A DNA stretch of 26,938 bases from positions 1 to 26,938 of IMG/VR virus record IMGVR_UViG_3300005753_000054. One strand, 5' to 3'. Shown here one piece after another: positions 2,581 to 25,680 of this stretch. Below the pieces are notes generated by a model that had not been told where the DNA came from, searched no databases, and saw only the letters and a list, made by a program, of their open reading frames with translations. Numbering within the stretch: the first letter of the stretch is position 1; every line of letters begins with the position of its first letter. The position numbers were made by a program, and so were the translations under genes. This DNA comes from a virus.

Positions 2581-2948
2581 TTCACAATTTCAACACCAAC
2601 GATCAAGCATTAGCAGATGCGTGCTTATTAGTTTATACAGTTTATCGTAGTCGCACATCGCGCTTTAAAAATGATACACGCATGTGGGATCGTATTGCCC
2701 GATTCACCGAAGCCGCAGCGAATGCCGCCCAATCTATACCTAATTTTATTGATCGATTTTCCAATAAAATGCAATGTGATGCACTTAAACTGTCAAAAAA
2801 CAAAAACCATACATTAGTGGATGCCATTAATGCAATGACGGACAAAGAAGTACTACGAAAACTTAATACCGAACACTTATTCGTTGTTTTACACGTAAGA
2901 GAACGATTACAAACAGAAAAGAATACGGAGAAAAACCATGCCAAATAA
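2577..2948 (+). CDS. cas11: Cas11-like small subunit of the type IV effector
   Basis: A 123-residue, predicted all-helical, basic protein placed directly before csf2. Subtype IV-B loci carry a small helical Cas11 subunit at this position, and size and neighbours agree. In type I, III and IV RNPs Cas11 lines the inner belly of the Cas7 filament and contacts nucleic acid. There is no sequence motif I can point to, because Cas11 families are very divergent, so the call rests on length, helicity and order (csf1, cas11, csf2, csf3). The start overlaps the upstream stop as ATGA, and the stop lies inside csf2. A long open frame on the opposite strand here is a shadow. Confidence 0.55.
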   Translation: MIHNFNTNDQALADACLLVYTVYRSRTSRFKNDTRMWDRIARFTEAAANAAQSIPNFIDRFSNKMQCDALKLSKNKNHTLVDAINAMTDKEVLRKLNTEHLFVVLHVRERLQTEKNTEKNHAK

Positions 2949-3849
2949 TAGCATCACAAGAATCGAGCTAAGTGTCATAACATTGTCCCCACTATCGCAT
3001 ATAGGAAAAAGTATTAGTGCGGATAATTTCCTGAGAACTGTACCTATGCGTCAATCAGATGGGACGTATAGAAGCATATTCAGCTATTCGGGCAATGCAC
3101 TTAGAGGCATGTTCAGAGATTTTATGGCAGAGTACATATTATCAAGTCTTAACATAGAATATGAGTCAATCCCGCTTGAATCCTTTGATTTTATATTTTC
3201 AAGCGGGGTGATTGGCGGTCAATCTAAATTTGATCCAAACCGCATTAAGCTGATGAAAAATATATATCCTCCATTTGGTCTGCTCGGCGGCAACCTAAAC
3301 AACATGATGATGCAAGGTAAAACCTCATTTTCTGACATTGTGCCTGTGTGCAAGGAAACTGAGCATAATTTGAATTTATTAAATTATGCACATGTCAACA
3401 ATGAAGATTATGCTCACAGTTATTATGACCTAATTTCAGAGTTGGAATATACCCGCTCTGATGATTCAAAATCCAACAATATTAATACATCTCCTTACTT
3501 AAAACCGCTCGAAAAGGAGAGGAAGTCAGCCGTACAAATGCGCTATAAAGACGAAATACTAAATGAAGGGGTGCTATTAAAAGGCGAAATACTCTTAAAT
3601 AAGGAAACGCCGTTTGAATTGGGCGCTTTGTTTAGTGCATTTCATCACCTTAAAACATTGCCATTTATAGGTGGGATGAAATCAAAAGGTTTTGGAAAGG
3701 TGCAACTTGAAGCACACATAGGTAATAAACTTATCTTTAGTACAAATCCATCAAATCAAACAGACGAATACTTTAAAAGCGTTTTAAGTGACTATGATAA
3801 GCATCTGTTAGCGCATAAAGGTGAAATTATTAGCGAGTTTACCGCGTGA
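2938..3849 (+). CDS. csf2: Csf2 (Cas7) backbone subunit of a type IV CRISPR effector
   Basis: RAMP-superfamily Cas7 protein of 303 residues, expected to polymerise along the guide RNA to form the RNP backbone. Visible signatures are an N-terminal strand with TLSPLSHIG (15-23) and the SGNALRGMFRD helix start (51-61) found in Csf2/Csm3-like Cas7 proteins. There is also a FGLLGG turn (113-118) and the glycine-rich loop GGMKSKGFGKV (245-255). Length is typical of Csf2. No catalytic Csm3-type aspartate can be assigned by eye. The start is fixed by an ATG overlapping the cas11 stop; a GGAG ribosome site (acGGAGaaaaacc) lies 6-7 nt upstream. The gene end overlaps the GTG start of csf3. Confidence 0.82.
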   Translation: MPNNSITRIELSVITLSPLSHIGKSISADNFLRTVPMRQSDGTYRSIFSYSGNALRGMFRDFMAEYILSSLNIEYESIPLESFDFIFSSGVIGGQSKFDPNRIKLMKNIYPPFGLLGGNLNNMMMQGKTSFSDIVPVCKETEHNLNLLNYAHVNNEDYAHSYYDLISELEYTRSDDSKSNNINTSPYLKPLEKERKSAVQMRYKDEILNEGVLLKGEILLNKETPFELGALFSAFHHLKTLPFIGGMKSKGFGKVQLEAHIGNKLIFSTNPSNQTDEYFKSVLSDYDKHLLAHKGEIISEFTA

Positions 3850-4514
3850 AATATAAACCCCTAAAAGTAACCGCATATTTAAGTGGGGGGTTGGATACAG
3901 GGAATAGCTGGACACCAGCCCTCGATGGCATATTAGCCTATTTTTATCTTGAAAATAAAATGGGTATCGATCAATTTAGTGCTGAAAGAAGCCAAAATAC
4001 TGAAAGTCTCGTTGATGATATGCCGATTCAGAAATTTTTTGATAAACAAGATAAAGATATATGGGTTTACCAATGTTCGTCCCCTTTTGTCAAAGTAGGT
4101 AGACAGGAAATTATTGAGCATTACAAACGATTTAATCTAAATAATTTAGAATATTTAAAGGTTAAAACAAAAACAGTGGCTTTAACAAAAGGTAAGCACA
4201 AAAACTGGATATTCAAGGTATTTTTAAAGCTCACAGAAAAAGTAGAGTGGTATATTGTTGCAGACAAGCCGTTTATTGAAAAAATGTTAAGCAACTGCAC
4301 GCACATCGGTGCAAATCGGGGAGCAGGTTATGGTCGTGTAATAAAATGGGCAGTAATCGAGGATGAACATGCTGAAAGTCTATCAATGCAGCGTCCTGTC
4401 CCACTATCGATACTGCAAGGTACAGAGATCGATAACGATGCAAAAATACAAGTGTGGGGATTTAGGCCTAGCGTGAGATTACACAGCAATAAGGCATATT
4501 GCTTGATGCCCTGA
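3846..4514 (+). CDS. csf3: Csf3 (Cas5) subunit of a type IV CRISPR effector
   Basis: Cas5-type RAMP protein of 222 residues. Visible Csf3 hallmarks are an N-terminal ferredoxin-like strand followed by ALDGILAYFYL (25-35), CSSPFVKVGRQEIIEHYKRF (77-96), and the glycine-rich loop GANRGAGYGRV (155-165). The C-terminus, WGFRPSV...AYCLMP, resembles the RPP/W...C..P ending of many Csf3 proteins. Cas5 caps the 5' handle of the crRNA. The start is GTG at 3846, overlapping the csf2 stop as GTGA. This is the last gene of the operon, and a strong terminator begins 8 bases after its stop. No cas6 follows, so crRNA processing, if any, must use another system's nuclease or none. Confidence 0.82.
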   Translation: MKYKPLKVTAYLSGGLDTGNSWTPALDGILAYFYLENKMGIDQFSAERSQNTESLVDDMPIQKFFDKQDKDIWVYQCSSPFVKVGRQEIIEHYKRFNLNNLEYLKVKTKTVALTKGKHKNWIFKVFLKLTEKVEWYIVADKPFIEKMLSNCTHIGANRGAGYGRVIKWAVIEDEHAESLSMQRPVPLSILQGTEIDNDAKIQVWGFRPSVRLHSNKAYCLMP

Positions 4515-4521
4515 ATTTCAG

Positions 4522-4568
4522 GCATAAAAAAGCCCCGCTTAGAAATTTAGTACGGGGCTTTTTTATGC
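4522..4568. terminator. Strong symmetric intrinsic terminator after csf3
   Basis: A perfect 16-bp inverted repeat, GCATAAAAAAGCCCCG (4522-4537) and its complement (4553-4568), surrounds a 15-nt loop. The GC-rich core is flanked by A6 on one side and T6 on the other, so it can terminate transcription in both directions. It closes the csf operon and insulates it from the phage side. A smaller hairpin (CCTGAATTTCAGG, 4510-4522) abuts it at the csf3 stop. Confidence 0.9.
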
Positions 4569-4614
4569 GTTGGAGTTCTTGTAAGTAAAATGTTGTCATA
4601 ATGTTACCATTCTG

Positions 4615-4634
4615 GAGAACATCCGAGAACATCC
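4615..4634. repeat. 10-bp tandem direct repeat beside the attachment site
   Basis: Two head-to-tail perfect copies of GAGAACATCC (4615-4624, 4625-4634), followed by a partial third copy (GAGAGT). The pair lies about 55 bp left of the tRNA-derived core. Short direct repeats at this distance are typical of arm-type integrase or excisionase binding sites, but no integrase is in the window, so this role is inferred. Confidence 0.4.
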
Positions 4635-4690
4635 GAGAGTATGTAATGTCACTCTCTAATTTATAAGTTGTTGTTTTAATTGAATATTAG

Positions 4691-4715
4691 TGGTGGAGAC
4701 GGCGGGAATCGAACC
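4691..4715 (-). other. Attachment site: 3' end of a tRNA or tmRNA gene
   Basis: Read on the minus strand this is the T-arm loop GGTTCGATTCCC followed by an acceptor 3' strand ending GTCTCCACCA. That is the last 25 nt of a tRNA-like gene, including encoded CCA. Only the inner three T-stem pairs can form (GGG with CCC). The sequence further into the gene (4716 and up) gives no T-stem outer pairs, anticodon or D arm, so the gene is not intact. This is the usual footprint of integration into a tRNA or tmRNA 3' end. The ...CTCCACCA end resembles many tmRNAs, but a tRNA whose 5' end is GGAGAC cannot be excluded. The CCA end faces left, so the reconstituted full gene should lie beyond the right end of the window. 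Confidence 0.75.
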
Positions 4716-4761
4716 CTAAAACTATCCTTGCTTATCAAAACATTACGATACTATGCTGTCA

Positions 4762-5229
4762 TCACATCACTGTGTTAGTCCTTATTTGAGCTACCCTGCC
4801 ACAAAAAACCTCAAAACATTTCAACTGTGGTCTATTGTCGTAACCCATTGTTAGTAACATGAAACCATTGTGAGTTAATCGATAAGCTATGGATTTAACT
4901 TTAGCTTTAAAATTATTTATATAAAAATAAGGCTCTTCAATAAATAGCTCACTAATGTCCTTTATCTCAAATCCATTAAAATTAGCATTCTTTCCGAAGC
5001 CCTCAAATTTGAGTTCTTCGAGAGTTTCAATGACTTGTGCGATAATTACGTTAATATCTCTCAATACATTGTAATGCTTTTTATTAAAATGACTAGCAAC
5101 ATCAATACTTGTACACGTAATAGTTTCATCATCGTTTATGGATATGTTGGGCATCCATGAGTCTAATGGATTTTTATTTGAATTTTCTTTAAGTGCAGCA
5201 GAAATTGCTAAAGTTGTATGCTTTTTCAT
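4762..5229 (-). pseudogene. rha: Rha-family phage regulator with truncated or replaced C-terminus
   Basis: Member of the phage Rha regulatory family, whose members interfere with phage growth in some hosts. Visible motifs are TSIDVASHFNKKHYNVLRDI (40-59), the conserved DVA..F.K.H..VLRDI block, and the domain core YRLTHNGFMLLTMGY (116-130). In intact Rha proteins the latter is followed by a lysine-rich TGKKA..FK..YI..FN segment. Here the sequence after residue 130 is unrelated (DNRPQLKCFEVFCGRVAQ) and ends about 45 bp from the attachment site. The gene therefore seems to have lost its C-terminal part at the prophage end. It is the only well-supported gene on the minus strand. Whether the shortened protein works is unknown. 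Confidence 0.7.
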
Positions 5230-5277: not shown

Positions 5278-5391
5278 TCAAGGGTGGATAGACTGTACGG
5301 GATTGACCTTGCCGCTAAATAAGAAAAGCAGCGAATCCGAAGACTCTCCTATACAGTCCACCATAAGCAGACAGGCACAAAAAAACCGCAT
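5278..5391 (-). CDS. Short ash/Icd-like prophage ORF overlapping a terminator hairpin
   Basis: A 37-residue minus-strand reading frame starting MRFFCACLLMVDCIGE and ending KVNPVQSIHP. Read back to the nearest stop it begins EAHTASMRFF. The HTASMRFF start and NPVQSIHP end resemble small ash/Icd-like ORFs common in gammaproteobacterial prophages, whose expression is doubtful. The first codons lie inside a terminator hairpin (5379-5400), and the frame ends just upstream of rha. It could be a leader peptide or merely a recurrent prophage sequence that happens to be open. Confidence 0.35.
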   Translation of the reverse strand: MRFFCACLLMVDCIGESSDSLLFLFSGKVNPVQSIHP

Positions 5392-5400
5392 AGAAGCGGT
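5379..5400 (-). terminator. Minus-strand intrinsic terminator
   Basis: On the minus strand ACCGC (5400-5396) and GCGGT (5389-5385) form a 5-bp stem with a TTCTAT loop, followed by seven T (5385-5379). It would stop transcripts entering from the right before rha. No minus-strand gene lies upstream, so it may serve an antisense or small RNA from the 5400-5750 region, or be a carried-over prophage element. Confidence 0.55.
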
Positions 5401-5754
5401 GTGTGCTTCTTATTTATAACAGGAGGTCAATCCTGACCGCTGTATTTTGCAGCGATAAGAAAATACTAATCCCGATCATAAAATAAGTCAAATTTTTATA
5501 CCATGTCACCCGTCCAATCTATCGAATTATCCTGCCTAAATCAAGCAATTTGCCCCAAATAAATGACAGCATTTTTTATAGGCCATTGATTTAGATTATA
5601 AGACGGCGGGAATAAAGGGCGTAATCGTCCGTTTAAAGTATTTTTGATTATTTGGAAATAAAGTAGGAATTACTGCAATTTTTTCGTATATTTTGCAGTG
5701 AAGCTCATGGAATAATAAGAGTTATTCGCTTATCAAAGGTTTAGATTTTTCACA
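5401..5754. other. Intergenic region before the lysis module, with inverted repeats
   Basis: No convincing gene in about 350 bp. Visible structure is a GGTCAATCC (5425-5433) that is the exact inverse of GGATTGACC at 5300-5308, and a CGCTG/CAGCG hairpin (5438-5454). There is also an ACTGCAA (5672-5678) facing TTGCAGT (5693-5699), with arm centres 21 bp apart as in a dimeric operator, and a GAATAA/TTATTC repeat near 5711-5727. A 13-bp copy of part of the attachment core lies at 5601-5613. A late or lysis promoter is expected here, but I could not identify a credible -35/-10 pair. Confidence 0.4.
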
Positions 5755-6801
5755 ATGGTGCATCTTGTTTCTTCCAAAAAAGTCAGTTTTAAGTTTTTTA
5801 AAGAAATTCGATCCTCTTTATTCAGCGGAAAACTAAATAACAAGCAAGTCCAAGGTGTCAATATGACTATCCTTGAATGCAGCAAACACACCAGTGATGT
5901 GCGCCTACTTGCCTATATTTTGGCAACGTTTTATTTAGAAACAGGGAAAACCTTTCAAGCAATCAAAGAGATAGGTAGCGATGCCTATTTCTTCAATCGT
6001 TACGATCCTAAAGGCAAGAAACCCCATATTGCTAAAAGTCTGGGCAATACTTGTGCGGGTGATGGCGTTTTATTCCCTGGCATGGGGCATGTGCAGCTAA
6101 CGGGCCGCAGAAATTATGTATTTCAGTCCAAAAAGCACGGGATTGATCTAATCGGCAACCCACACTTAATGCTTAAAAATGAAATATCAATCCCTGTTTC
6201 CGTCCAAGGGATGTTAGATGGTGATTACACGAGCAGGCCATTATCGCGCTATATCAACAAAGATAAATGTGACTTCAACAATTCACGTCGTGTTGTAAAT
6301 GGCACAGACAGAGCAGAGGATATTGCGGCTTATGCTGAAAAATTCCTGTCTGCTATTAAATCGGCATTACTACAAATAGAACCTGTAGCCATTATATCCA
6401 AACAAGAAGCATTACCAAAATCGAAGAAGGCCCATGTAATCGATCCAATGACGAGTACTGTGCCAAATAGCACGACAATAGAGACAATCTCAATAAGAGG
6501 CGAGGACATCGATAACGATGAATACCTTGCTTATCAACTCAACCAAGCCACAAAACAGCACGCCGCGCTAATGGCCACGATTGAAAAGCCCGAATACCAA
6601 TCTAAAACAATTATCGCAGCAGTAGCGATGTTGTTATCACTCATGCTGACCCGTTTCGGCTTGAATATTTCTCCAGAAACCGCGCTAAATATCATCACAC
6701 TAGTGGTGACAATTGGTTTGCCAATTATTATCGCTTTGCGAAAGTGGAGCAAAAATAAGCCGATCAAAAAGCGAAAGTCCAGAAAAGAGGTTATTTTTTA
6801 A
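5755..6801 (+). CDS. GH19-type phage endolysin with two C-terminal membrane segments
   Basis: Phage muramidase/chitinase-like endolysin (348 residues) that cleaves cell-wall glycan at lysis. The domain runs from about 12 to 200: FFKEIRSSLFSGKL at the start, LATFYLETGKTFQAIKE (56-72) with likely catalytic E62 and E72, then GRRNY (117-121) and SRRVVNGTDRAEDI (177-190). There is no signal peptide. After a linker the C-terminus holds KPEYQSKTIIAA (278-289), a first hydrophobic segment (about 285-299), a second (about 309-328), and a very basic tail. The YQSKT-plus-TM module is often a separate small phage protein, so this is an endolysin fused to a membrane or holin-like module. It would be tethered to the inner membrane. 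The stop overlaps the next ATG (TAATG). Confidence 0.8.
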   Translation: MVHLVSSKKVSFKFFKEIRSSLFSGKLNNKQVQGVNMTILECSKHTSDVRLLAYILATFYLETGKTFQAIKEIGSDAYFFNRYDPKGKKPHIAKSLGNTCAGDGVLFPGMGHVQLTGRRNYVFQSKKHGIDLIGNPHLMLKNEISIPVSVQGMLDGDYTSRPLSRYINKDKCDFNNSRRVVNGTDRAEDIAAYAEKFLSAIKSALLQIEPVAIISKQEALPKSKKAHVIDPMTSTVPNSTTIETISIRGEDIDNDEYLAYQLNQATKQHAALMATIEKPEYQSKTIIAAVAMLLSLMLTRFGLNISPETALNIITLVVTIGLPIIIALRKWSKNKPIKKRKSRKEVIF

Positions 6802-7753: not shown

Positions 7754-8104
7754 TTGAGCCGTATGATAGAAAGTTTTGTCAACGCATACAATACGTTGCT
7801 TGATTTTCTCGATAATCATGTATTGATTGCCTCACTTATACTTTTTGCGGCACTAACCAATGCGATGATACAGCTAAAAAAAGCGAGGGGTGAAAGCAAG
7901 GTATTTGGTTTCATTGATTTCCTAATCGAATTAATTGCCGCTATTTTTGCAGGGATCGTCTCTGTATTGTTTGCGGTGCAATACAACGCGACACCCGTAG
8001 AACTGGGTATTGCAGCAGGCTGTGGTGCATTTTTAGGGATTCGCGGATTAAATGCTTTTGGTGATTTAATTTTGAGACATTACACAAACAAAATAGAAAA
8101 ATGA
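7754..8104 (+). CDS. LydA-type (holin superfamily III) phage holin
   Basis: A 116-residue membrane protein with three hydrophobic segments (about 22-40, 52-75, 80-97) and a basic C-terminus, fitting the P1 LydA-like holins that form inner-membrane lesions to release or activate endolysin. The GxxxGxRG turn near 90-98 is typical. The TTG at 7754 has GGAG 8 nt upstream and is the likelier start; the in-frame ATG at 7763 would remove three residues. The stop overlaps the next start (ATGA). Confidence 0.72.
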   Translation: MSRMIESFVNAYNTLLDFLDNHVLIASLILFAALTNAMIQLKKARGESKVFGFIDFLIELIAAIFAGIVSVLFAVQYNATPVELGIAAGCGAFLGIRGLNAFGDLILRHYTNKIEK

Positions 8105-8240: not shown

Positions 8241-8330
8241 ATGAAATTATTTTTAGATACAGAATGTACAGGGTCACACCAAAATACAACGCTGATGCAT
8301 ATTGTTGCAGATAATGTATCCGGTCTATAA
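8241..8330 (+). CDS. Very small ORF overlapping gpD start
   Basis: A 29-residue frame (MKLFLDTECTGSHQ...) starting 8 bases after the previous stop, with a weak AG-rich upstream sequence, and overlapping the first codons of the gpD gene. No family is recognised. It may be a leader peptide that couples translation into gpD, or a decayed start of a longer gene such as tail protein X, or not coding at all. Confidence 0.25.
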   Translation: MKLFLDTECTGSHQNTTLMHIVADNVSGL

Positions 8331-9375
8331 AATTTTATCTAATAACGCCGATATTACAAAGGCAATAGCAGAACGCCTTTACGAACTTATCGTTGTTGAC
8401 AATGCGGGATTTAAAAATGACAAATTCACCTTGCGACTCGATGATCAAAAACCCTGGGTGAAAATTCCAAAATATGGTACAAAAGTACAGATATTTATGG
8501 GATATCAATATAAAAATAACTCAGAAATGCCGAGTGTTATAGGTGATATGGGTATCTATTATGTCGATGAAGCCGCTTCTGATAATAAGCCAAATGTATT
8601 AACGATTACAGGGCGTTCAGCAGATACAGGCGGCACGTTAAAATTTACGAAATCAAGAACATGGGAAGACACAACGATAAAGGAAATATTGTCAACCATT
8701 GCAGCAGAACACGGCAAAGATTTTTTTGCAGGTGAGTCAGTAGCGGATGAATATTATGATGTAAAAGTTCAGCATAACTCTAGCGATCAAAAATTTCTTG
8801 CTAAAATTGCACACGAAAAACAGGCAATATTCAAGGTCGTTAACGATACATTAATTATTGCAAGACGCGGGGAAACAAAGAGTAAAAGTGGCGGTACAGT
8901 TGTGCCTTTTGTTTTAACCGATAAATATTTAAACAAGGTGTCGTGGCGAATACATCTTGTTAATGAGTATACCTATGTATCTGCTAGATATATGTCAAAA
9001 GAAAAAGGGAAACAACTGGAAATAAAGAAAAACGTTCCGCCAAAGTATGTACTAAATCCTGATGAAAAAAACTTAACGTTAGACACTGTATATCCATCAG
9101 CAGAAGAAGCAATGGATGCGATTGATAGTGCAATTGAAGAGCTAATTTTTGGCAAAGAAAGGTTGACATTAAATGAAATGGTTGGACATCCATTATTGAG
9201 AGCGGAAAGGAAAATCTATGTCTATGACGGAAATATACGCCCAGAGATTTACATGGATCAGTTTTCAGGAAAGCCTAAAGCATGGCTTGTTTCCTCAATT
9301 ACGCACAGAATGGTGGGATCCTCCTCCACATACACGATGTCAGCAGACTGTGAAATTTGGAAAGAAAAGGATTGA
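8314..9375 (+). CDS. Baseplate hub, P2 late control protein D-like
   Basis: 353-residue protein of the P2 gpD / Mu gp44 hub family, which sits under the spike at the centre of the contractile-tail baseplate. The N-terminus PVYKILSNNADIT...RLYELIVVDN followed by KFTLRLDD is the usual gpD opening. GKDFFAGESVADEYYD and FLAKIAHEKQAIFKV (about 165-180) match the domain that continues ...LLARLA...A.FKV in this family. YTMSADCEIW ends it. An upstream TTG at 8302 is open, but the ATG at 8314 fits the family start better. In P2 the D gene follows T and U at the far end of the tail operon; here it lies between lysis and head genes. Confidence 0.75.
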   Translation: MYPVYKILSNNADITKAIAERLYELIVVDNAGFKNDKFTLRLDDQKPWVKIPKYGTKVQIFMGYQYKNNSEMPSVIGDMGIYYVDEAASDNKPNVLTITGRSADTGGTLKFTKSRTWEDTTIKEILSTIAAEHGKDFFAGESVADEYYDVKVQHNSSDQKFLAKIAHEKQAIFKVVNDTLIIARRGETKSKSGGTVVPFVLTDKYLNKVSWRIHLVNEYTYVSARYMSKEKGKQLEIKKNVPPKYVLNPDEKNLTLDTVYPSAEEAMDAIDSAIEELIFGKERLTLNEMVGHPLLRAERKIYVYDGNIRPEIYMDQFSGKPKAWLVSSITHRMVGSSSTYTMSADCEIWKEKD

Positions 9376-9424
9376 GTGCAGCTAATTTCATTAACATCAA
9401 TGCAACTTATACAGGGGATTTGCA

Positions 9425-9838
9425 ATGCCACGAAAACGAGGACTTAACACGCATGATGATGTTATTGAGCTAGTATCCGATTATTGTCATTTTTGTCCCG
9501 CTCAATTATCTGCAATGACAACACAGTTGTGCCAAAAAAAATTAAGTAAATCAGAGATAATGCACATCCGTGATAAATACAGCATTACCTACACCCAACC
9601 CTCTCCTATTATGTTTAGGATACATGATATTGCTGTATTACTCGGTGTTAAGCAAAAAAATGTATGGGATTGGATTTACTCGGAAAAAATAGCCTACAAA
9701 TATGTAGCAGAGCCGTCACCGTGCAATGCAGTTATTACACGATACTCAGTAGCTAAATTTATCCGCACCTACCCGGGCGAAGTGAATATAAAGAAAATGA
9801 ATTTCACCGCGATTGTTGACGTATTAACGCCTGAATAA
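9425..9838 (+). CDS. Helix-turn-helix DNA-binding protein
   Basis: 137 residues. A MerR/excisionase-like winged helix is visible: FRIHDIAVLLGVKQKNVWDW (64-83), a short wing, and ITRYSVAKFIRTYP (104-117). A CHFC pair lies at 21-24. AGGGGA 5-6 nt upstream supports the ATG. It opens the stretch leading to the head genes and may activate late transcription, as Ogr/Delta-like regulators do in P2 phages, but it is not an Ogr homologue by sequence. Confidence 0.55.
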   Translation: MPRKRGLNTHDDVIELVSDYCHFCPAQLSAMTTQLCQKKLSKSEIMHIRDKYSITYTQPSPIMFRIHDIAVLLGVKQKNVWDWIYSEKIAYKYVAEPSPCNAVITRYSVAKFIRTYPGEVNIKKMNFTAIVDVLTPE

Positions 9839-9859
9839 AACTCATAATGAGAATGTATT

Positions 9860-9967
9860 ATGTTAATCAAAATTAAAGCCACATTAGCTTGTTCTTTGTT
9901 CCCAGAGTTTCTAGAAAGAAAGCTGATGTCTTGTCAAGAGCACTCTATCGTGGTGATTTATGAGTAA
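9860..9967 (+). CDS. Small ORF of unknown function
   Basis: A 35-residue frame (MLIKIKATLACSLFPEFLER...) whose stop overlaps the next gene by 8 bases. There is no recognised family and no metal-binding cysteines of the Mu Com type. The overlap hints at translational coupling; otherwise support is weak. Confidence 0.25.
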   Translation: MLIKIKATLACSLFPEFLERKLMSCQEHSIVVIYE

Positions 9968-10445
9968 TACTTTACATGATAAATACAAAAAAAATACGGG
10001 TGTTGGTGCAGGAATAACTGTCCCTGCTTTTAATGAGATATTTGACATATTTTCCATAAATATAATGGAAAGTGGTTCTTTACTGCATTTTAAAGAAAAT
10101 GAGGTTGAGGAAATTAGAGAAATAGCCCGATCAGTAGTCTATTTAACGCTATCTAAATTAAGTGCAATATTCACCCTCTATTTAGATAGAGATCAAGGGG
10201 ATTTAAAAAAAGAAGAGGACGATGCAAAGCCCATCTTAACTTTTGTTGTCCCTGCAATGGTAATGAATGCACAGTTTTTGTTTTATTATAATTTAGAAGA
10301 AGAACGGCTATCAAGTTACAATATTATGACCGAAACAGGGTATATTTTGGGTGTTTTTTTAAAGACAATGGATGAGTGGCGAACCTCATCGCCGTGGTTT
10401 ACATCAGCGTTATCTACGCCAATTGACGCTAATTTGTTAAATTAA
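9960..10445 (+). CDS. Hypothetical phage protein
   Basis: 161 residues, predicted helical, with an acidic middle (DQGDLKKEEDDAK) and hydrophobic helices (about 58-72, 91-107), but no clear transmembrane protein character. No family recognised. It precedes another unknown gene and the portal gene, the position usually held by terminase subunits, but no terminase motif is visible. Confidence 0.6.
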   Translation: MSNTLHDKYKKNTGVGAGITVPAFNEIFDIFSINIMESGSLLHFKENEVEEIREIARSVVYLTLSKLSAIFTLYLDRDQGDLKKEEDDAKPILTFVVPAMVMNAQFLFYYNLEEERLSSYNIMTETGYILGVFLKTMDEWRTSSPWFTSALSTPIDANLLN

Positions 10446-10459
10446 GCAGGAATCTTAAA

Positions 10460-11224
10460 ATGGATCACAGTACAAAAAAGAAAGAACCTATTAACATAGG
10501 CAGATTTTCGGATAATGGGCAGAATATAAAAATGGATAAAGTACTAGGGGAAAAAAATGAAAGCCTTAATAATATAAATGAACTAATTCTAGAATCAGAA
10601 CAATTGATTAAAGAGTGTGCCACCGTATCAGGGGTTGAGGGTAATACTGATAGTGCATCAGCTGTAATGTTTCTGGATATGCAGAGTTTAAATACATGGG
10701 TAACATTATCAATAACGCTGTATTTTTTATACGAAAGTCGGGATTATGAAAAGTTCGAGTATTTTGGCGAAAATGATGTAGGATTCAGGGCATTCATCGA
10801 ACAAAATACGTCTATTAAGTATCGAAAAGCAATGTATATGGTCGGTCTTGGACGAATGACCATTGAAGAACCTAAAGTAATGCAATTAATGGATGGGGTT
10901 GGCTGGTCATTAGCTGTTGAAATATCTAAGGCGTATTTGTCGGAAAATATAACCTTTGAGCAAATCCCTACATTAGTAAGAGCAGCTAAGGTGTCGCGAG
11001 AAGAAATGCGTAAAGTTCTCGCTAGTCTAAAAGGCGATGAAAAGGACGACGCACCCCTTTTTATGAAGTTTGGATTTTCCGTGTCAGAAGAAACAGGCAA
11101 GCGCCTTGGTAACATCATTTCAAATATGCTGACAGAAGGCCATGCAACGACAGAAAATCAAGCGTTTGAAAAACTAATATTGGAGGGTTCTAATTTCTTT
11201 AATATTAGAGCCTATGATGAATAA
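10460..11224 (+). CDS. Hypothetical protein before the portal gene
   Basis: 254 residues with a well-placed AGGA upstream. The N-terminal 45 residues are polar. The middle contains KYRKAMYMVGLGRMTIEE..QLMDGVGWSLAVEISKAYL then AAKVSREEMRKVLASLKG (about 116-195), a helical repeat-like arrangement that looks like a nucleic-acid-binding or adaptor fold. It ends in an acidic tail that overlaps the portal start. Position would suit a small terminase, but I see no supporting motif and do not call it so. Confidence 0.6.
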   Translation: MDHSTKKKEPINIGRFSDNGQNIKMDKVLGEKNESLNNINELILESEQLIKECATVSGVEGNTDSASAVMFLDMQSLNTWVTLSITLYFLYESRDYEKFEYFGENDVGFRAFIEQNTSIKYRKAMYMVGLGRMTIEEPKVMQLMDGVGWSLAVEISKAYLSENITFEQIPTLVRAAKVSREEMRKVLASLKGDEKDDAPLFMKFGFSVSEETGKRLGNIISNMLTEGHATTENQAFEKLILEGSNFFNIRAYDE

Positions 11225-12650
11225 ATCTAAACGAAAAAACCATAGAAGACCCTCTAAATCCTCTTTCGCATTATCAAGCATTGAATTTAATTCAAAGTCA
11301 ATAATGCAAATAGATGATGACAGTGAGGGCGTTGGCTTAGCCGAAGCACATGGAGGTGATGATACCTTACTAATACCCTTGTTTTCTATTTCAAGACTCA
11401 ATCTTTATCCTTACAAAAATGACACATTACTACAGTGTATTTCGGCAATGGTTGCAAACATATCATCCACCTCAGAAACTATATTTATAGACGCTGATCT
11501 TATTATGGGAAAGGAGGAAGGTGCTAATTTAGAAAATGAGTTATTGTCAGATATAAAGAAAAATTGTTCGGGCAAGAAAACATTAACTAAAGTGCGAGAG
11601 ATTTATAGAAATCATTTAGAAACATTTGGATTTGCTTTTGTTGAGATAGTAAGAGATGGAGTTGGTACAACAGCAATAATACATAATGTAAGTCCTCTTA
11701 TTACGCGTATCATCGATGCAAAAGAGGAAACGCTTGTGACTGAGTATGTTCACCGAAAAGGTGAACGAGTAGGCATAGAAAGAACGAGAACATTCTATAA
11801 ATTCATTCAGCGGAACAATAAAGGCGACATTCGTTACTTTAAGGAATTTGGCGATCCGAGAGGAATGGAATCGACAACAGGGAAGTTCCTTAGTGGTGGG
11901 GTTAAGGGCGATGCAACAGAAATAGCAATGTCATCATTGTGCGAGAACGGTTCACCTTATGGATTTCCTCGTTGGATAAATCAACTCCCATCGGTAATTG
12001 GTTCAAGGAAAGCCGAGAATGTGAATGTTGTATTTTTTGATTCAAATGCAATTCCCGATATGGTTGTACTGGTTTCAGGTGGCTCATTATCGGATGACTC
12101 ATTTAACGAAATTGAAGAAAAGTTGACGAGCAATAAAGGGGCGGATTCTTTAAATAATATTATTGTATTGGAAGCATATGGCGATGAAGAAGCTAGCGAC
12201 GATAATGGTAAGATACCTCCGCCAAAAATAGAAATAAAACCCTTATCGGATAGTCGTCAATCGGATCAATTGTTCGGAAAATACATTGATAAATGCACTA
12301 AATCAATTAGACGTTCCTTTAGATTGCCTCCAATCTTATTGGGTGCAGCAGGTGCTGATTACAATAGAGCGACAGCTGAAGCATCAATAAAACTTGCCGA
12401 ATCACAAGTATTTCATTCGGCAAGAAAAGAGGAAATCGACTTTTTTAATGGATTAATTCAGATTGAATATAAACCGCTGCGTTACGCCAAATATATTGGT
12501 AACACGCCAGCCAATACCAATATTATCGAAATATCTAAAATACTAGAAAAGATCGGTCATAAAATGGGGCTTAGCGAGAAAGAATATAGAACAATACTAA
12601 ATGATGCACTTAGTACAAATATTTTCACTAGATGTAAGGTGCAAACATAA
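11214..12650 (+). CDS. Phage portal protein
   Basis: 478-residue portal of the PBSX/HK97-like class, the dodecameric ring at one capsid vertex through which DNA is packaged. Evidence includes LETFGFAFVEIVRDG (about 139-153), VTEYVHRKG, and the diagnostic late segment SIRRSFRLPPILLGAAGADY followed by NRATAEAS (about 363-388). The opening residues are strongly basic. It overlaps the upstream gene by 11 bases and its stop overlaps the next start (TAATG). The large terminase gene that normally precedes a portal is not present upstream in this window. Confidence 0.85.
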   Translation: MMNKSKRKNHRRPSKSSFALSSIEFNSKSIMQIDDDSEGVGLAEAHGGDDTLLIPLFSISRLNLYPYKNDTLLQCISAMVANISSTSETIFIDADLIMGKEEGANLENELLSDIKKNCSGKKTLTKVREIYRNHLETFGFAFVEIVRDGVGTTAIIHNVSPLITRIIDAKEETLVTEYVHRKGERVGIERTRTFYKFIQRNNKGDIRYFKEFGDPRGMESTTGKFLSGGVKGDATEIAMSSLCENGSPYGFPRWINQLPSVIGSRKAENVNVVFFDSNAIPDMVVLVSGGSLSDDSFNEIEEKLTSNKGADSLNNIIVLEAYGDEEASDDNGKIPPPKIEIKPLSDSRQSDQLFGKYIDKCTKSIRRSFRLPPILLGAAGADYNRATAEASIKLAESQVFHSARKEEIDFFNGLIQIEYKPLRYAKYIGNTPANTNIIEISKILEKIGHKMGLSEKEYRTILNDALSTNIFTRCKVQT

Positions 12651-13477
12651 TGGCTTTGGATGTTAGTGAGTATACGGGTATTTATGATGGTGTAGACGCA
12701 TTATTTAGCGCAGTAGAAAATTCACCTTGGTCTAAAGAGGAAAACTATATTGCCGCCATATTATTGTTTTTCTCCTATAACTCAATTGAAAGCACCAAAA
12801 CCGTGTTATCTCCATTATGGTCAAACTTTTCTGAGAATATCAATATATTATCAGAGGGTGGTAACGTGCCGACTACTAAACCAACTATTAAGAAAATGCA
12901 GCCAGCTTCATTGCAGTCAGTAACCGCAGGTTGGAACGAATCAGCAAATTATAGTATTGAAGAGCCTCAAAATTACCCATCAATGCTTGAGTATTCCACG
13001 GATATTGCTCGACAGATAAAAGAAGGATATTCAGAACGCTATGTATCAATCGCTAACAAATTACTAAGCGATTATACAAAAGAAAAAATAGAGAATGGCG
13101 AAAGAGAAGGTGAGCCCTTGCCTGAATACTATGAGAGAAAAGTTACAGATAGTAATCATTGGAAATTAGTTGCAGCAGCAGCAATGTCACGCTCATACCA
13201 TTATGGATTCTATCGAGCAACACAGAGCCAAGGTTTAACGCAGTGCCAATTAGTTGCACAGTTAGACCATAGAACATCAAAAATATGCCGTAGCCTACAC
13301 GGCACTACTTTTTATGTGGCTAATGCCATTGCAACAATGGAAGATCAAGCTAAATTGACGTTAAGTGATTTAAAAACAAGTTATCCGTGGGCAAAAAATG
13401 TAACCGATTTAAATACAGATCAACGCTTACCTCCTTTCCATGCAAGATGCCGTACAACCGTCCACATTGTAGGTTAA
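12650..13477 (+). CDS. Mu gpF / SPP1 gp7-like minor head protein
   Basis: 275 residues. The C-terminal domain is typical of the Mu F-like head morphogenesis family: QLDHRTSKICRSLHGT (about 204-219) and the end PPFHARCRTT (261-270), with paired cysteines and histidine. These proteins bind portal and are carried in the head, possibly helping DNA ejection. The first 150 residues are family-poor. The position right after portal is canonical. Confidence 0.85.
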   Translation: MALDVSEYTGIYDGVDALFSAVENSPWSKEENYIAAILLFFSYNSIESTKTVLSPLWSNFSENINILSEGGNVPTTKPTIKKMQPASLQSVTAGWNESANYSIEEPQNYPSMLEYSTDIARQIKEGYSERYVSIANKLLSDYTKEKIENGEREGEPLPEYYERKVTDSNHWKLVAAAAMSRSYHYGFYRATQSQGLTQCQLVAQLDHRTSKICRSLHGTTFYVANAIATMEDQAKLTLSDLKTSYPWAKNVTDLNTDQRLPPFHARCRTTVHIVG

Positions 13478-13479
13478 AT

Positions 13480-14037
13480 ATGACAGAACGTAGAATTGTT
13501 TACGGGGTAGTTTACCCCGTAAATCGCCCCGATACCGATAATGAATTCATGCTAGCAGAAGATGTAGAAATGGCAGCGCATTCATTTATGGAAAACATAT
13601 ACAAGCAACAGGGAGGGGGGATTGATTATATGCATAACTGGGAATTAGCAGATGCACATCCCGTTGAAAGTTATATTTGCCCTGTTGATATTCCAGAAAT
13701 GAAATTTATAAAAGGTGACTGGATACTGGGCGTTAAAATTAATGATGATGATCTATGGGATAAAGTTAAAGTCGGTGATATTGGCGGTTATTCGTTAGCC
13801 GCATTAACGGATAGTGTGGAGGTTGACACTGTATTGGATAACCCTCAATATTTTATTGGTATTACTCAACCCGACCATGAAGATAGCCATGTACACTTAT
13901 TTCATCTGAATATAAATAAAATGGGGCGAATCGTATCAGGTTGCACTAGTATGACTAACCATCATTCTCACAAGATAACGAGCGGCACGGTAACGAATGA
14001 AGAAAAAAAACATAAACATAGAATAATCGTAAGATAA
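13480..14037 (+). CDS. XkdF-like prohead protease
   Basis: 186 residues from the ATG at 13480, two bases after the upstream stop; the frame is open further left but overlaps the previous gene. YGVVYPVNRPDTDNEFM (8-24), GIDYMHNW (47-54), VESYICP (62-68), GDWILGVKI (79-87) and GDIGGYSLAA (99-108) match the XkdF-type serine protease family. H52 and S105 are the likely catalytic residues. The C-terminus is histidine-rich (HVHLFHL, NHHSHK, KHKHR), like the H-x-H tails seen in some phage relatives. It should cleave scaffold or capsid during maturation. Confidence 0.7.
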   Translation: MTERRIVYGVVYPVNRPDTDNEFMLAEDVEMAAHSFMENIYKQQGGGIDYMHNWELADAHPVESYICPVDIPEMKFIKGDWILGVKINDDDLWDKVKVGDIGGYSLAALTDSVEVDTVLDNPQYFIGITQPDHEDSHVHLFHLNINKMGRIVSGCTSMTNHHSHKITSGTVTNEEKKHKHRIIVR

Positions 14038-14041
14038 TATT

Positions 14042-15232
14042 ATGACGACTAATAATCATAAATCTACGCGACTAACAAATCCTAATACGTTTTTTGTGTC
14101 CCTAGTGGATAAATCTGCATCACAATTCCCCTTTATGAAAATCAAAAGAGATAAGGCTATGACCCCTGTAATAATAACAATCAAAAGCAAAAATAAAGAT
14201 AAAGCTAAAGCCATTGCAAACAAAGTGGGTATTGATGATTTTAAAATAAGTGAGACTGTAGATGATTTAATTACATTGACTGAGAAATCATTTGAAGGTG
14301 AAGAGTCTTTGATTGACGATTTAATACTGCTTGAAATCAAAGCACCTAATAATGACATTGAATCGGAGTGGATTGTGGTAAATAAAGCCTTAATTAACCC
14401 GTCAGAGGATGAAGTCATTGAAGATGATGCAGGGATATTACTATCGACAGTGAAAGCTGATGCATCTAAAAAGATGGATGCATGGGATGCGTACTATGGG
14501 GTTCGTTGGTCAGAAGAAATTCCGAATATATTCAATGCTTTTCGGGAAGGAGTTTACGCGCCTTATGAGTCCATTATCCCTATAGATTCATTTACTCAAG
14601 CATTGATTGCGACAATCAATGCTTCAATGGTTAAACGTGTTGCAAATGAGATAACGAAAGAAGAAGCCTTAGCTGCTATGGACAAAGCAGTGGATGATTA
14701 CGCGAATATTGTGAAACAAATGATTGCCGTAATTGAGCCTATTTACACAGGTGAAGTAGAAGATGACAATCAATTAAGTGCAAAAACACCCGTTATTAAA
14801 GATGGCGATAATAACAAGTCAGAAACCAATACATTTATTATTAATTTTGGGGATGTTAATGATACAGCGGGTGAGAATTTAAATGAAAAGATTGCAGCTA
14901 GCGTCACTAAAAACCTAAAAGAAAATGATTTCAATACAACGATTGAATCGATAAATCTCAAGGTTAAAAAACTAACCCTTTCATTAAAAGAAAATAAGGC
15001 TGAACTGAACAAAAATTCAGAAGCAGTTAAAGAAATTTCAAATATCAATAAAGAGCTAACTGTATTAAAAAAGGGTTTGAATGAATCTGATATTCTTATC
15101 AAGAAAATGGCAATTAAGCCCACAACAAACACTAACCAATTATCCAATCATAATCACGCAGAAAAAAGCGAGAATGAAATTAAAAACGATGCGTTTGATG
15201 AAAAAATGGTTAACAACACTTTAGGTGTGTAG
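14042..15232 (+). CDS. Scaffold-like head assembly protein
   Basis: 396-residue acidic protein between protease and capsid, where a scaffold is expected. It has an alpha/beta N-terminal half, a WDAYYGVRWSEEIPNIFNAF segment (about 145-164) of the kind found in companions of XkdF-type proteases, and a long predicted coiled coil (about 290-360, rich in K/E/L/N). The end has NHNHAEK. No catalytic motif is seen. Function is inferred from place and the coiled coil. Confidence 0.6.
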   Translation: MTTNNHKSTRLTNPNTFFVSLVDKSASQFPFMKIKRDKAMTPVIITIKSKNKDKAKAIANKVGIDDFKISETVDDLITLTEKSFEGEESLIDDLILLEIKAPNNDIESEWIVVNKALINPSEDEVIEDDAGILLSTVKADASKKMDAWDAYYGVRWSEEIPNIFNAFREGVYAPYESIIPIDSFTQALIATINASMVKRVANEITKEEALAAMDKAVDDYANIVKQMIAVIEPIYTGEVEDDNQLSAKTPVIKDGDNNKSETNTFIINFGDVNDTAGENLNEKIAASVTKNLKENDFNTTIESINLKVKKLTLSLKENKAELNKNSEAVKEISNINKELTVLKKGLNESDILIKKMAIKPTTNTNQLSNHNHAEKSENEIKNDAFDEKMVNNTLGV

Positions 15233-15235
15233 CAT

Positions 15236-16144
15236 ATGAGTTCTATGATTGAAAAAGCCCTTCTAGGTATTGATGATCTAATGGCCGATGGTGGGCAATT
15301 ACCTGCGACAGAAGCTAAGACCTTTATCCGTACAATGACGGAGCAAGATACCATTATGCGGACAAGTCGGGTTGTGCCAATGGCAAGCTCCACACATAAT
15401 TTATCTAAAATAGGGTTTGGTAGCCGTATTTTACGTGCTGCAAATCAAGGTGAAGGGAAACGGGCATTGTCCGAAAATGACCGCTCAAAGCCAACCACAG
15501 GAAGAGTATCGCTTGAATCTAAAGAAGTGATTGCGGAGGTGCGTATTCCGTATGAAACCATTGAAGATAATATTGAAAAAGGGCAATTAACCTCAACTAT
15601 TATCGCCCTAATCGCACAGCACGCATCTGTTGACATAGAAGAAATACTCATTAATGGCGATACAGACGACACGGATCCTTTTTTGGCATTATTTGATGGC
15701 GTGTTAAAACGTGCAAATCGTCATACAGTTGATGCGACGGGATTTGACATTGATTCTGATTTATTTAGCAGTACAGTTAAGTCGATGCCAAAAAAGTATC
15801 GAACCAACAAACGCACTATTAACTTCTTTTTGCCCGACGATGTTGAGCAAGACTATCGCAACGCCCAATCTAAGCGTGGAACAAACTTGGGTGATGCGAC
15901 ATTAACAGGTGATGCGCCTTTACGTTTATTTTCATCCCCTGCTATCCCTGTAGCGATGCTTCCAGATGATCAGGCTATTTACACCCCGCCTCGAAATATT
16001 ATCGTAGGTGTGCAGCGCCGAATCACCATTGAAACAGATAAAGATATTTCTGCACGAGAAGTTATTTTTGTTGTTACGGCCCGCATCGCATGTGCTGTTG
16101 AAGAAGCAGACGCGATTGTTAAAATAATCAATATCGGTAAATAA
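15236..16144 (+). CDS. Major capsid protein, HK97-like
   Basis: 302 residues, of typical size and position. SRVVPMASSTHNLSKIGFG (about 41-59), RIPYETIEDNIEKG (about 103-116), IEEILINGDTDD (about 133-144) and the late IIVGVQRRITIETDKDI (about 253-269) match HK97-fold capsid proteins of phages with separate protease. There is no long N-terminal scaffold domain. The next gene follows after 4 bases. It should form the icosahedral shell. Confidence 0.82.
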   Translation: MSSMIEKALLGIDDLMADGGQLPATEAKTFIRTMTEQDTIMRTSRVVPMASSTHNLSKIGFGSRILRAANQGEGKRALSENDRSKPTTGRVSLESKEVIAEVRIPYETIEDNIEKGQLTSTIIALIAQHASVDIEEILINGDTDDTDPFLALFDGVLKRANRHTVDATGFDIDSDLFSSTVKSMPKKYRTNKRTINFFLPDDVEQDYRNAQSKRGTNLGDATLTGDAPLRLFSSPAIPVAMLPDDQAIYTPPRNIIVGVQRRITIETDKDISAREVIFVVTARIACAVEEADAIVKIINIGK

Positions 16145-16148
16145 GATC

Positions 16149-16415
16149 ATGGCAACACGTATTATGTACACAGCACAGACCATTGCAAAAGACACGACAT
16201 TTACAATTAAAGGAAAAAAGATTGTAAATAAACCGCAAGAGGTTACAAAGCTTGAGGCTGACCAGTTAAAAGTTAATGCAGTGCGCCAGCGCATCGATGA
16301 AGGCACACCAATTTTTATTCCGTTGGTAACAATCAAAGAAGTTAAAAGCGAAATACCTATTGTTAGCCCTGCAAAAAAAGCCGCAGCAGCTAAACAAAAA
16401 GGCGATACAACTTAA
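16149..16415 (+). CDS. Small Lys/Ala-rich head-region protein
   Basis: 88 residues: a beta-rich first half (TFTIKGKKIVNKP), a helical middle and a K/A-rich tail (PAKKAAAAKQKG). Such small proteins often follow the capsid gene and act in head completion. Family not recognised. A hairpin follows the gene (16443-16470). Confidence 0.65.
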   Translation: MATRIMYTAQTIAKDTTFTIKGKKIVNKPQEVTKLEADQLKVNAVRQRIDEGTPIFIPLVTIKEVKSEIPIVSPAKKAAAAKQKGDTT

Positions 16416-16442
16416 ATCATCAATAGGCTGAATTTGATATAT

Positions 16443-16470
16443 AGGCGACAATATTTATATTGTCGCCTTT
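16443..16470 (+). terminator. Terminator-like hairpin between head and connector genes
   Basis: AGGCGACAATAT (16443-16454) and its exact complement (16457-16468) form a 12-bp stem, followed only by TTTG. The T run is short, so it may terminate weakly or protect the 3' end of the capsid mRNA, which would raise head over tail gene expression. Confidence 0.5.
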
Positions 16471-16482
16471 GCCGCACCCAAG

Positions 16483-17055
16483 ATGAAGGCAATAATGATA
16501 AAATCAAACTACCAAGATAAGACAATAGCTCAGTGGCAGTCTATTTTATATCCCTTAGAATCACTTATTAAGCCACATTTAAGGATTGCATCTAATTCAG
16601 ATGATGAGCTACTTGTCGCTTATCTATCCCAGTCAGTATCTATAGTTGAGTCAATGGTTAGGCGAGCAATCACCCCCGTTGTTTTCACGAAAGAGATAAC
16701 CCCGCATCGCTCAATAATAATAACCAAAACAAAACGTATTAAGCTTACCGTGCCTATGATTGATTTAATAGAGATTGTAAACGAAGATGAAGATAGCCTT
16801 CTAAGTTATGTAAAAAACACTCATTATGGTTGCATTATTATTAATGTTCCAGAATTTACATTATTTTCAAAAAATGGCTTTTCTGTGACATATGCAGCGG
16901 GCTACACTGATACAGCTACCATGCCTCAAGCAATTACCAGTGCTATTTTACAGTTACTTACATCACTTTACGAAAATAGAGGGGATTACAATCATGGCTT
17001 GCATAGAAATATTACAGGCATACTTGCTCCCTTTCGCTCAACCTTTACTGCCTAA
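16483..17055 (+). CDS. Head-tail connector (gp6-like adaptor)
   Basis: 190 residues. An N-terminal helical domain (LLVAYLSQSVSIVESMVRRAITP, about 44-66) and a later VTYAAGYTDTATMPQAIT followed by LLTSLYENRG (about 135-165) match the gp6/gp15-like adaptor family that binds below the portal. An in-frame ATG at 16495 with AAGG 5 nt upstream may be the true start. Confidence 0.75.
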   Translation: MKAIMIKSNYQDKTIAQWQSILYPLESLIKPHLRIASNSDDELLVAYLSQSVSIVESMVRRAITPVVFTKEITPHRSIIITKTKRIKLTVPMIDLIEIVNEDEDSLLSYVKNTHYGCIIINVPEFTLFSKNGFSVTYAAGYTDTATMPQAITSAILQLLTSLYENRGDYNHGLHRNITGILAPFRSTFTA

Positions 17056-17060
17056 AATTC

Positions 17061-17519
17061 ATGGCTAAAAATAAAATAAAACGATCCAGGGGTCGGAGTG
17101 GTGCTTTTGCTTTCAGAAGAAAGTCGGAGTCATGGATCAAGGCTATTAGCATCCGTGACCTTGATACATTAATAACGATACATACAAGTTATAAAACGCC
17201 CTCTGGTAGTGACAATACCTCAAATGCCTTTAAATCAAAGGGGATCAAAGCGTATGCAGCAATGCATATTGATAGCGTTATACAGAATAAAAATGCAAAT
17301 GATTCTAATGTAGAGGTTTTATTCTGCGTTCGGAATATAGAAATTGTAGGGCTAATACTTCCTGCGCTAATTTATATTGGTGACAGCTCATATCGATTGA
17401 TAGAAACCATGCCTGTAATAAGGGACAGATTCACAATTCTTATTACAATACCTGATGCAGATGAAGTAATGAGCAATAAGGTTATCGAAGAGACTGATGA
17501 ACTACCCATATGGAGTTGA
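17061..17519 (+). CDS. Head closure / head-tail joining protein (SPP1 gp16-like)
   Basis: 152 residues with a basic N-terminus, then a beta-barrel-like pattern: RDLDTLITIHTSYKTPSG, YAAMHIDSV, LIYIGDSSYRLIETMPV. This fits the phage head-tail joining family. It lies between the adaptor and the gp10-like gene, the standard order. Confidence 0.65.
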   Translation: MAKNKIKRSRGRSGAFAFRRKSESWIKAISIRDLDTLITIHTSYKTPSGSDNTSNAFKSKGIKAYAAMHIDSVIQNKNANDSNVEVLFCVRNIEIVGLILPALIYIGDSSYRLIETMPVIRDRFTILITIPDADEVMSNKVIEETDELPIWS

Positions 17520-17522
17520 TTT

Positions 17523-17963
17523 ATGATTAAACTAGATATTGAGATTGATACAGGTAATTTTGAAAGAAGATGGAATAAGAATGCCAATCGATTTACTCAA
17601 GCTTTGCAGTCAAGACTAAAATCCACATCATCCGATTACGCAAAAAATATAAAAGAAGAGATTAATCGTCGTTTTAATCTGCCTAAAACGGGGCGAATTT
17701 ATTCTTATAAGGGGAAGTCACATCAAGCATCAGCCCCAAATGAAGCGCCTGCCGTTCGTAGTGGGTCATTATTAAAATCAATTTTCGTAAAAGACACATC
17801 AGTGGGACTGGTAAATGAATTTAAGATAGGCTCAGGATTGAATTATGCATTATTTCTAGAAAAAGGAACAAAGCATATGAAACCTAGACCCTTTTTAAGA
17901 ATATCAGCAAGCACCCATTACGCAACATTCCTTGCCAACATAAAGCAATCCTTAAAAGGTTAA
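17523..17963 (+). CDS. HK97 gp10-like tail completion protein
   Basis: 146 residues. APNEAPAVRSGSLLKSI (about 76-92) and YALFLEKGTKHMKPRPFL (about 109-126) are the usual signatures of the HK97 gp10 family, needed to join or complete head and tail. An ATG with an AT-rich leader follows the upstream stop by 3 bases. Confidence 0.82.
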   Translation: MIKLDIEIDTGNFERRWNKNANRFTQALQSRLKSTSSDYAKNIKEEINRRFNLPKTGRIYSYKGKSHQASAPNEAPAVRSGSLLKSIFVKDTSVGLVNEFKIGSGLNYALFLEKGTKHMKPRPFLRISASTHYATFLANIKQSLKG

Positions 17964-17965
17964 CT

Positions 17966-18673
17966 GTGAAACACACTGATTTTATTATTGCCCGAATTCG
18001 GGATAAATGTCTTGGATTTGAGAGGCGCGTACAAGGCGTGGCTGAACTTAATGATAAAATTTCATCAAAAGAGCTAGATATTGATACGCCCCATGTTTTT
18101 GTAGTTCCGATTGATATGCAGCCAATAGGAAAAAAGCAAGATGACAAACATCTTACGTGGGTAAAAGCAAACTACTCTACGGTTATTTGCGTATCCAATA
18201 TCAATCCCCTTGACGGTGTGGGAATACACCCATCTGCACTCATTAATAAATTATTTATGGAAATATACAGTGCTTTTGATCATTGGATACCGTTGCAAGA
18301 CAAAGACAAGCCAACGTTAACATTATCGGATGCTATCCCAGTGGAGGAAAGAGCGCTTTATTTAGGGTTAATTGAGAGTCAAATGAAGCTGGCTGCACTA
18401 GACTATCCCCCCGAATACGAGGGAGGTGGATATTTGACAATGGAAAATAGCTATTTATGGCATGAATACAGGTGGTCGATTGAATATCCTTTAATTCCAA
18501 ATGGGGGTTGCAAAAGCACTCAAAACCAACCGATAGATGATATTACTATTGCCATATCACCCAGCCCCATCACAGGTGATGAGTCAGGTGCAAGCGCGAA
18601 GGATTATGAGCTTTACAGCAATAAAGGCTGGAGCAATGTTGATAATCCATCTAAAGAGGATGAACCTACATGA
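17966..18673 (+). CDS. Probable tail terminator protein
   Basis: 235 residues starting at a GTG 2 bases after the gp10-like stop. Position and alpha/beta layout (IIARIRDKC, HVFVVPID, STVICVSNINPLD, WSIEYPLIPNGG) fit a tail terminator of the Mu gp37/P2 gpR functional type that caps the tail tube. The last 60 or so residues are a low-complexity S/D-rich extension without family match. Its stop overlaps the spike gene start (ATGA). Confidence 0.55.
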   Translation: MKHTDFIIARIRDKCLGFERRVQGVAELNDKISSKELDIDTPHVFVVPIDMQPIGKKQDDKHLTWVKANYSTVICVSNINPLDGVGIHPSALINKLFMEIYSAFDHWIPLQDKDKPTLTLSDAIPVEERALYLGLIESQMKLAALDYPPEYEGGGYLTMENSYLWHEYRWSIEYPLIPNGGCKSTQNQPIDDITIAISPSPITGDESGASAKDYELYSNKGWSNVDNPSKEDEPT

Positions 18674-19908: not shown

Positions 19909-20342
19909 TGACAACCCCCATATCATCAAATATCGACGCACCTGAACACATGTTTTCTAGTGAAGATTATGTTTTCGCAGGCGAAACAGATTGCACGATA
20001 GATTCGATCAATAATAGAATTTGCGCTGATATTAATATCATTTCTTTGTTGACGGGCGTAAATGAAAATAATAAAGAAATTCATCATTTATCTGGCAATG
20101 ATGCAACATACTTGTTAAGGATTGCTGGGTCAAATGGGTCTTCAGTCATCGAAATAAAGAATGGCTCAATAAAAATACAATCTACTGAATTTGTAGAAAT
20201 TCAGTCCCCTAAAATCAGCCTAGATTGTGAAGAATTTAATCTTTCTGCATCAAAATCCATTGCAATTATAAGCCCCTTTGTTGAGATAGAAGGGGTTGAG
20301 CATCTGGAAATCAAAGAGAGGGGGAATATAATTATTCCCTAA
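19908..20342 (+). CDS. Second spike- or needle-like beta-repeat protein
   Basis: 144 residues starting inside the gpV-like stop (TAATG). The C-terminal half has the same beta-repeat style as the spike: VIEIKNGSIKIQSTEFVEIQ, SPKISLDCEEFNLSASKSIAII, SPFVEIEGVEHLEIKERGNIII. Likely a spike tip or partner trimer. The SPKI(T/S) segment is shared with the upstream gene, which suggests partial duplication. Confidence 0.55.
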   Translation: MTTPISSNIDAPEHMFSSEDYVFAGETDCTIDSINNRICADINIISLLTGVNENNKEIHHLSGNDATYLLRIAGSNGSSVIEIKNGSIKIQSTEFVEIQSPKISLDCEEFNLSASKSIAIISPFVEIEGVEHLEIKERGNIIIP

Positions 20343-20397
20343 CTATCAATTATGCTGAAATATTTACGGGTAAAAAATCGCTGACTGTATTAATTAG

Positions 20398-20403
20398 TAT
20401 AAT
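20398..20403 (+). promoter_or_regulatory. Candidate -10 box in the gap before 20445
   Basis: A perfect TATAAT lies in a 102-bp gap between tail genes, 42 bp before the next start. No good -35 at 16-18 bp is seen (CTGACT at 20381 is only 11 bp away), so promoter status is uncertain. The gap is one of few non-overlapping junctions in the structural operon. Confidence 0.3.
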
Positions 20404-20444
20404 TCAAATGCAGTAATACATATACGATTTAAAGTGGATAAGGA

Positions 20445-21487: not shown

Positions 21488-21530
21488 TAGCGTATTTAAG
21501 GTTATGCTTTAAGATCGGATAAACTATCTT

Positions 21531-25670: not shown

Positions 25671-25680
25671 AAGGATTCCC

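Follow-up and report, generated by a model that had tools for sequence, protein, structure and literature searches.

Tandem ssrA islands have been documented in Dehalococcoides (PMC3146451), and in Gifsy-1 the isrK RNA heads an operon in the order isrK-orf45-anrP (PMC4825925). The viral DNA analysed here, hereafter the window, recalls the latter order. It is an entire 26,938-bp IMG/VR record, an isolated viral contig classed as linear or fragment-like, in which an orphan copy of a tmRNA 3′ end stands between a csf operon on its left and phage genes on its right. The initial annotation had taken this fragment for a tRNA or tmRNA 3′-end attachment site whose polarity puts the csf cassette outside the prophage. 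The attachment site itself is ordinary; the location of the csf cassette is the interesting part, and who benefits from the cassette depends on whether it is phage cargo or belongs to the chromosome or a tandem island.

An orphan tmRNA 3′ end as attachment core

On the minus strand, positions 4691–4716 read GGGTTCGATTCCCGCCGTCTCCACCA, which is exactly the 3′ end of tmRNA (ssrA), with its CCA pointing left. The sequence was first described at 4691–4715, and that description holds, except that the exact tmRNA match spans 26 nt rather than 25 and takes in part of the T-stem along with the T-loop, the acceptor 3′ strand and the CCA already recognized. Because the bases 5′ of the core (...GATAGTTTTA|GGG) differ from those of intact tmRNAs (...GGACGC|GGG), and because ARAGORN calls neither a tRNA nor a tmRNA anywhere in the window, the fragment is an orphan: the gene's 5′ part is absent and only its 3′ end, exact in sequence, is there. 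The Rfam tmRNA model matched 13 nt of the window with 10.9 bits, far below gathering, which is unsurprising for so short a fragment. The core is present as a single copy in the window even when up to 3 mismatches are allowed (shuffles expect 0). A 13-nt part-copy at 5601–5613 was judged to be a chance match, neither side of which continues as tmRNA.

Scanning IMG/VR returned 28 viral-contig stretches with the identical 26-mer, and every RNA gene that ARAGORN placed on the 26-mer in these stretches was a tmRNA (8 standard, 3 permuted). Of 369 sampled gammaproteobacterial genomes, 15 carry the 26-mer too, 14 of them with an ARAGORN tmRNA that terminates exactly on it. Since the genes on the 26-mer in both viral contigs and sampled genomes are tmRNAs, a tRNA origin of the core was rejected.

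Both ends are in hand for three complete elements, one in G269 and two on IMG/VR contigs (the contig of L007 and L029, and that of L022 and L023). The G269 element (L240) is a 6.4-kb ssrA island that carries an integrase and a cytosine-methyltransferase-like gene and is bounded by two copies of the 26-mer. The repeat common to intact tmRNA and orphan in the three elements is the 26-mer, extended by 0–2 nt upstream of GGG and by 1–3 nt past CCA; in G269 its upstream limit coincides to the base with that of the window. The core of the window thus has the boundaries of the repeat in known ssrA-integrated elements. Because the 26-mer both ends tmRNAs and forms the repeated core of the three complete elements, the assignment of 4691–4716 as an att core of an ssrA-specific integrase is well supported, and the attachment site proposed for either a tRNA or a tmRNA can be narrowed to tmRNA. 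In all three elements the orphan CCA faces away from the element, in agreement with the polarity rule that the initial annotation had invoked. In loci found through their similarity to one ssrA integrase, this enzyme is encoded 15–1750 nt from the core; in G269 the distance is about 20 nt. In L002, L015 and L020 the integrase is at the distal end, where the tmRNA is intact. Within the window, among the subset of ORFs scanned, no integrase was seen in the 4.7 kb to the left or the 22 kb to the right of the core.

Phage genes and a csf operon on either side of the core

The phage genes that had been proposed to lie right of the core are indeed there. Closest to it is a Rha-family antirepressor gene (4762–5229, minus strand; Pfam PF09669, 2.7e-12; phrog_518, 1.8e-10), and upstream of this gene on the same strand are a C4 antisense RNA (5280–5368; Rfam RF01695, 57.5 bits against a gathering score of 45) and an isrK RNA (5379–5456; Rfam RF01394, 51.1 bits against 50). 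Further right, on the plus strand, are genes for a GH19-type endolysin (5755–6801; phrog_181, 1.2e-29) and a holin (7754–8104; phrog_6384, 4.3e-8), and then a head and tail block (8302–26938) with homology to Aeromonas phage HJ05, in which we recognized a tail protein, portal, minor head protein, protease, major capsid protein, adaptor, neck and baseplate. By its capsid HJ05 is the closest named phage (54%), and we found neither an integrase nor a phrog_22746 csf2 in it. Integrases are rare in the related phage family (4 of 43 records with a match), csf2 was found in 1 of the 50 family records searched, and portal relatives in genome contigs were all distant, the top one being from Paracoccus (34% identity).

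The antirepressor resembles the Rha domain up to position 72 of the 91-position profile, and the similarity breaks off about 120 bp from the core, suggesting that the 3′ end of the gene has been replaced and that a secondary rearrangement may have taken place there. The core could then be a passive remnant that no longer works as att, left by an earlier integration or deletion and taken up when cassette and core together displaced the antirepressor's own 3′ end; that no integrase was seen nearby and no paired core in the window is consistent with this. Each boundary of the core, however, is flawless, and Rha proteins may come in variants with a short C-terminal part; we hold a remnant to be improbable.

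Left of the core is a plus-strand operon that begins with csf1 (type IV Cas8-like; 3–842; PADLOC PDLC01721, 2.2e-31; TIGR03114, 3.8e-19, below the curated cut-off), the reading frame of which is open at the left end of the contig. This is followed by a gene for a beta-glucosyltransferase-like protein (944–1894; phrog_7922, 1.3e-6; Pfam Glyco_trans_1_2, 0.0012, below cut-off) and by one that weakly resembles queuine/archaeosine tRNA-guanine transglycosylases (TGT-like; 1870–2580; phrog_7068, 0.0018; phrog_887, 0.0022; TIGR00432, 0.0018; Pfam TGT, 0.012), for which an AlphaFold model was unusable (mean pLDDT 34.6). The operon continues with type IV cas11 (2577–2948; PADLOC PDLC01183, 1.7e-23), csf2 (type IV cas7; 2938–3849; PADLOC PDLC01724, 6.5e-49; phrog_22746, 1.9e-41) and csf3 (type IV cas5; 3846–4514; PADLOC PDLC01727, 7.9e-32; phrog_34599, 6.5e-13). 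PADLOC thereby finds csf1, cas11, csf2 and csf3 together, as in type IV-B. No CysH-like gene and no array-like repeat family was found in the part of the operon seen, which may continue left of position 1. Both inserted genes match phage families, weakly in the TGT-like case.

Type IV-B-like genes were also seen on two other phages. An 86-kb phage contig, G028, has csf2 and csf3 (PADLOC) just past its endolysin and holin genes (L121, 12511–19042), accompanied by a CysH-like gene, a DNA helicase gene and a csf1-like ORF that has paired-cysteine motifs and no PADLOC match; its portal and capsid are related to those of the window phage, and a gene for a tyrosine integrase lies at 32 kb. Skermania phage SPI1, whose genome is complete, has csf1, cas11, csf2 and csf3, annotated as hypothetical proteins, upstream of its lysin and holin (L038, 6849–9781). 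SPI1 itself matches phrog_22746 at 7.7e-145, and the PHROG match of the window's csf2 is not independent of it. Patterns for csf2 gave no match in viral or genome contigs. Among the 369 gammaproteobacterial genomes there were four strong Csf2 matches, all in other contexts; in these four regions tblastn detected nothing related to the cas11 of the window.

Ownership of the csf cassette

Polarity alone does not imply that the cassette is outside the prophage, as the initial annotation had it, because attP and attR carry the fragment in the same direction; in a free phage, attP has phage DNA on both sides. In an isolated viral contig nothing about the polarity separates the two states. In the three complete pairs, a terminator on the chromosome side of the orphan follows 31, 53 and 63 nt after CCA, and most native ssrA genes have one 26–40 nt past CCA. 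In the window, the first terminator after CCA is a bidirectional intrinsic one (4520–4570; segment fold −13.8 kcal/mol) that ends csf3 and has its T-run 159 nt away. Apart from it the CCA side consists of csf genes only, with no chromosomal gene recognized over the 4.7 kb between the core and the contig's left end. Some native-looking flanks also have no early terminator, namely the Pseudomonas-like flanks common to intact and orphan copies (L004, L005, L009, L024 and L026), and this exception makes terminator distance moderate evidence.

The same flank contains a perfect tandem direct repeat of a 10-bp unit, GAGAACATCC (2.4 copies; 4615–4638), 53–76 bp from the core. It has no copy on the other arm of the core and no match among viral contigs. 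These repeats are possible candidates for integrase arm-type sites, a role that stays a guess because the 10-bp repeat was not found elsewhere. A 22-mer spanning the CCA and its flank likewise had no match among viral contigs.

Two further readings of the junction were weighed. The fragment may be attR, with the prophage to the right of 4716 and with csf, to the left, belonging either to the chromosome or to a tandem ssrA island. The polarity fits, following the rule seen in the three complete elements, and an integrase placed, as in L002, L015 and L020, at the distal end with the intact tmRNA would explain why none was seen near the core. A tandem csf island also has the Dehalococcoides islands as precedent (PMC3146451), and G269 shows an ssrA island between two cores; nothing in the window, however, shows such an island. 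The attR reading is further weakened by a left side with neither an early ssrA terminator nor a recognized chromosomal gene, by the phage-type genes within the csf operon, and by the other contexts, with no cas11 relative detected by tblastn, of the four strong Csf2 matches in gammaproteobacterial genomes. We regard it as less likely than phage cargo but more likely than a remnant or a chimera. Alternatively, the assembly could have fused two metagenomic sequences at a 26-nt stretch that is widely shared. The 26-mer is common to many bacteria and elements, and gene content changes in kind at this very stretch; yet assemblers normally accept only overlaps longer than 26 nt, and composition is similar on both sides of the core. 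A chimera is very improbable, and even jointly with a passive remnant it is unlikely.

That the csf cassette is phage cargo beside attP is the reading to which we give the greatest weight, about an even chance, and the cassette more probably belongs to this phage than lies beyond its limits. The weights given to phage cargo, to attR and to remnant or chimera are judgements and were not computed. Phage cargo is favoured by the distance to the first terminator and the lack of a recognized chromosomal gene to the left, by the csf genes adjoining endolysin and holin in G028 and SPI1, by the phage-family matches of the two extra operon genes, by the isrK-C4-antirepressor module of temperate phages that adjoins the core, and by the tetranucleotide usage of the csf block, which is inside the range of the phage blocks. 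Against it, the GC content of the csf block (0.346) is below that of the phage blocks (0.365–0.398), its codon distance lies at the upper end of what the phage blocks show, and the related phage family is mostly without integrases and csf2. Composition leaves the ownership of the block undecided. That no integrase was seen also counts against attP, which should be near one, given the distances in the traced loci.

If the cassette is phage cargo, the contig would most likely derive from a temperate tailed phage with a proteobacterial host, and the orphan tmRNA 3′ end would be the crossover core of an ssrA-specific tyrosine integrase, serving as the phage's own attP or representing the same site viewed from inside the element. 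Such a phage presumably integrates by means of an integrase encoded beyond the contig ends. Integration would rebuild the host tmRNA with the phage core as its 3′ end and would leave the host's own, displaced 3′ end as the orphan at the far junction. Being on the CCA side, and probably of the same element as the phage genes, the csf cassette would then be just downstream of the restored tmRNA, where the terminator of csf3 would also end read-through from ssrA. A bolder and less probable reading is of a temperate phage that bears a type IV-B-like csf operon, with glucosyltransferase-like and TGT-like genes inside it, right beside its ssrA attP, and whose csf complex may act with nucleic-acid modification in the lysogen. 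A phage-borne cassette beside lysis genes and an attachment site, with possible nucleic-acid modification genes, would point to mobile-element competition or self-marking.

Comparison with known elements

Like the type IV-B-like genes of SPI1 and G028, the csf2 and csf3 genes of the window (and, as in SPI1, its csf1 and cas11) are next to endolysin and holin genes. The window's operon differs in its glucosyltransferase-like and TGT-like genes and in the absence of a CysH-like gene from the part seen, and its csf2 is only 23–28% identical to theirs. In having an antirepressor gene follow isrK and C4 RNAs on a single strand, the window resembles the isrK-anrP operon of Gifsy and the C4 modules of the P1/P7 type, whereas its antirepressor is of the Rha family, with a C-terminal part that is not recognizable.

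At the attachment site, neither an intact tmRNA nor a second core or integrase was seen in the window, unlike in known ssrA elements, and the Dehalococcoides islands differ further in having a 20-bp repeat and a serine recombinase (PMC3146451). With those islands, as with G269 and the two IMG/VR contigs, the window shares an orphan copy of the tmRNA 3′ end. In the latter three, where the complete examples have the CCA facing away from the element, the core boundaries are the same as those of the window.
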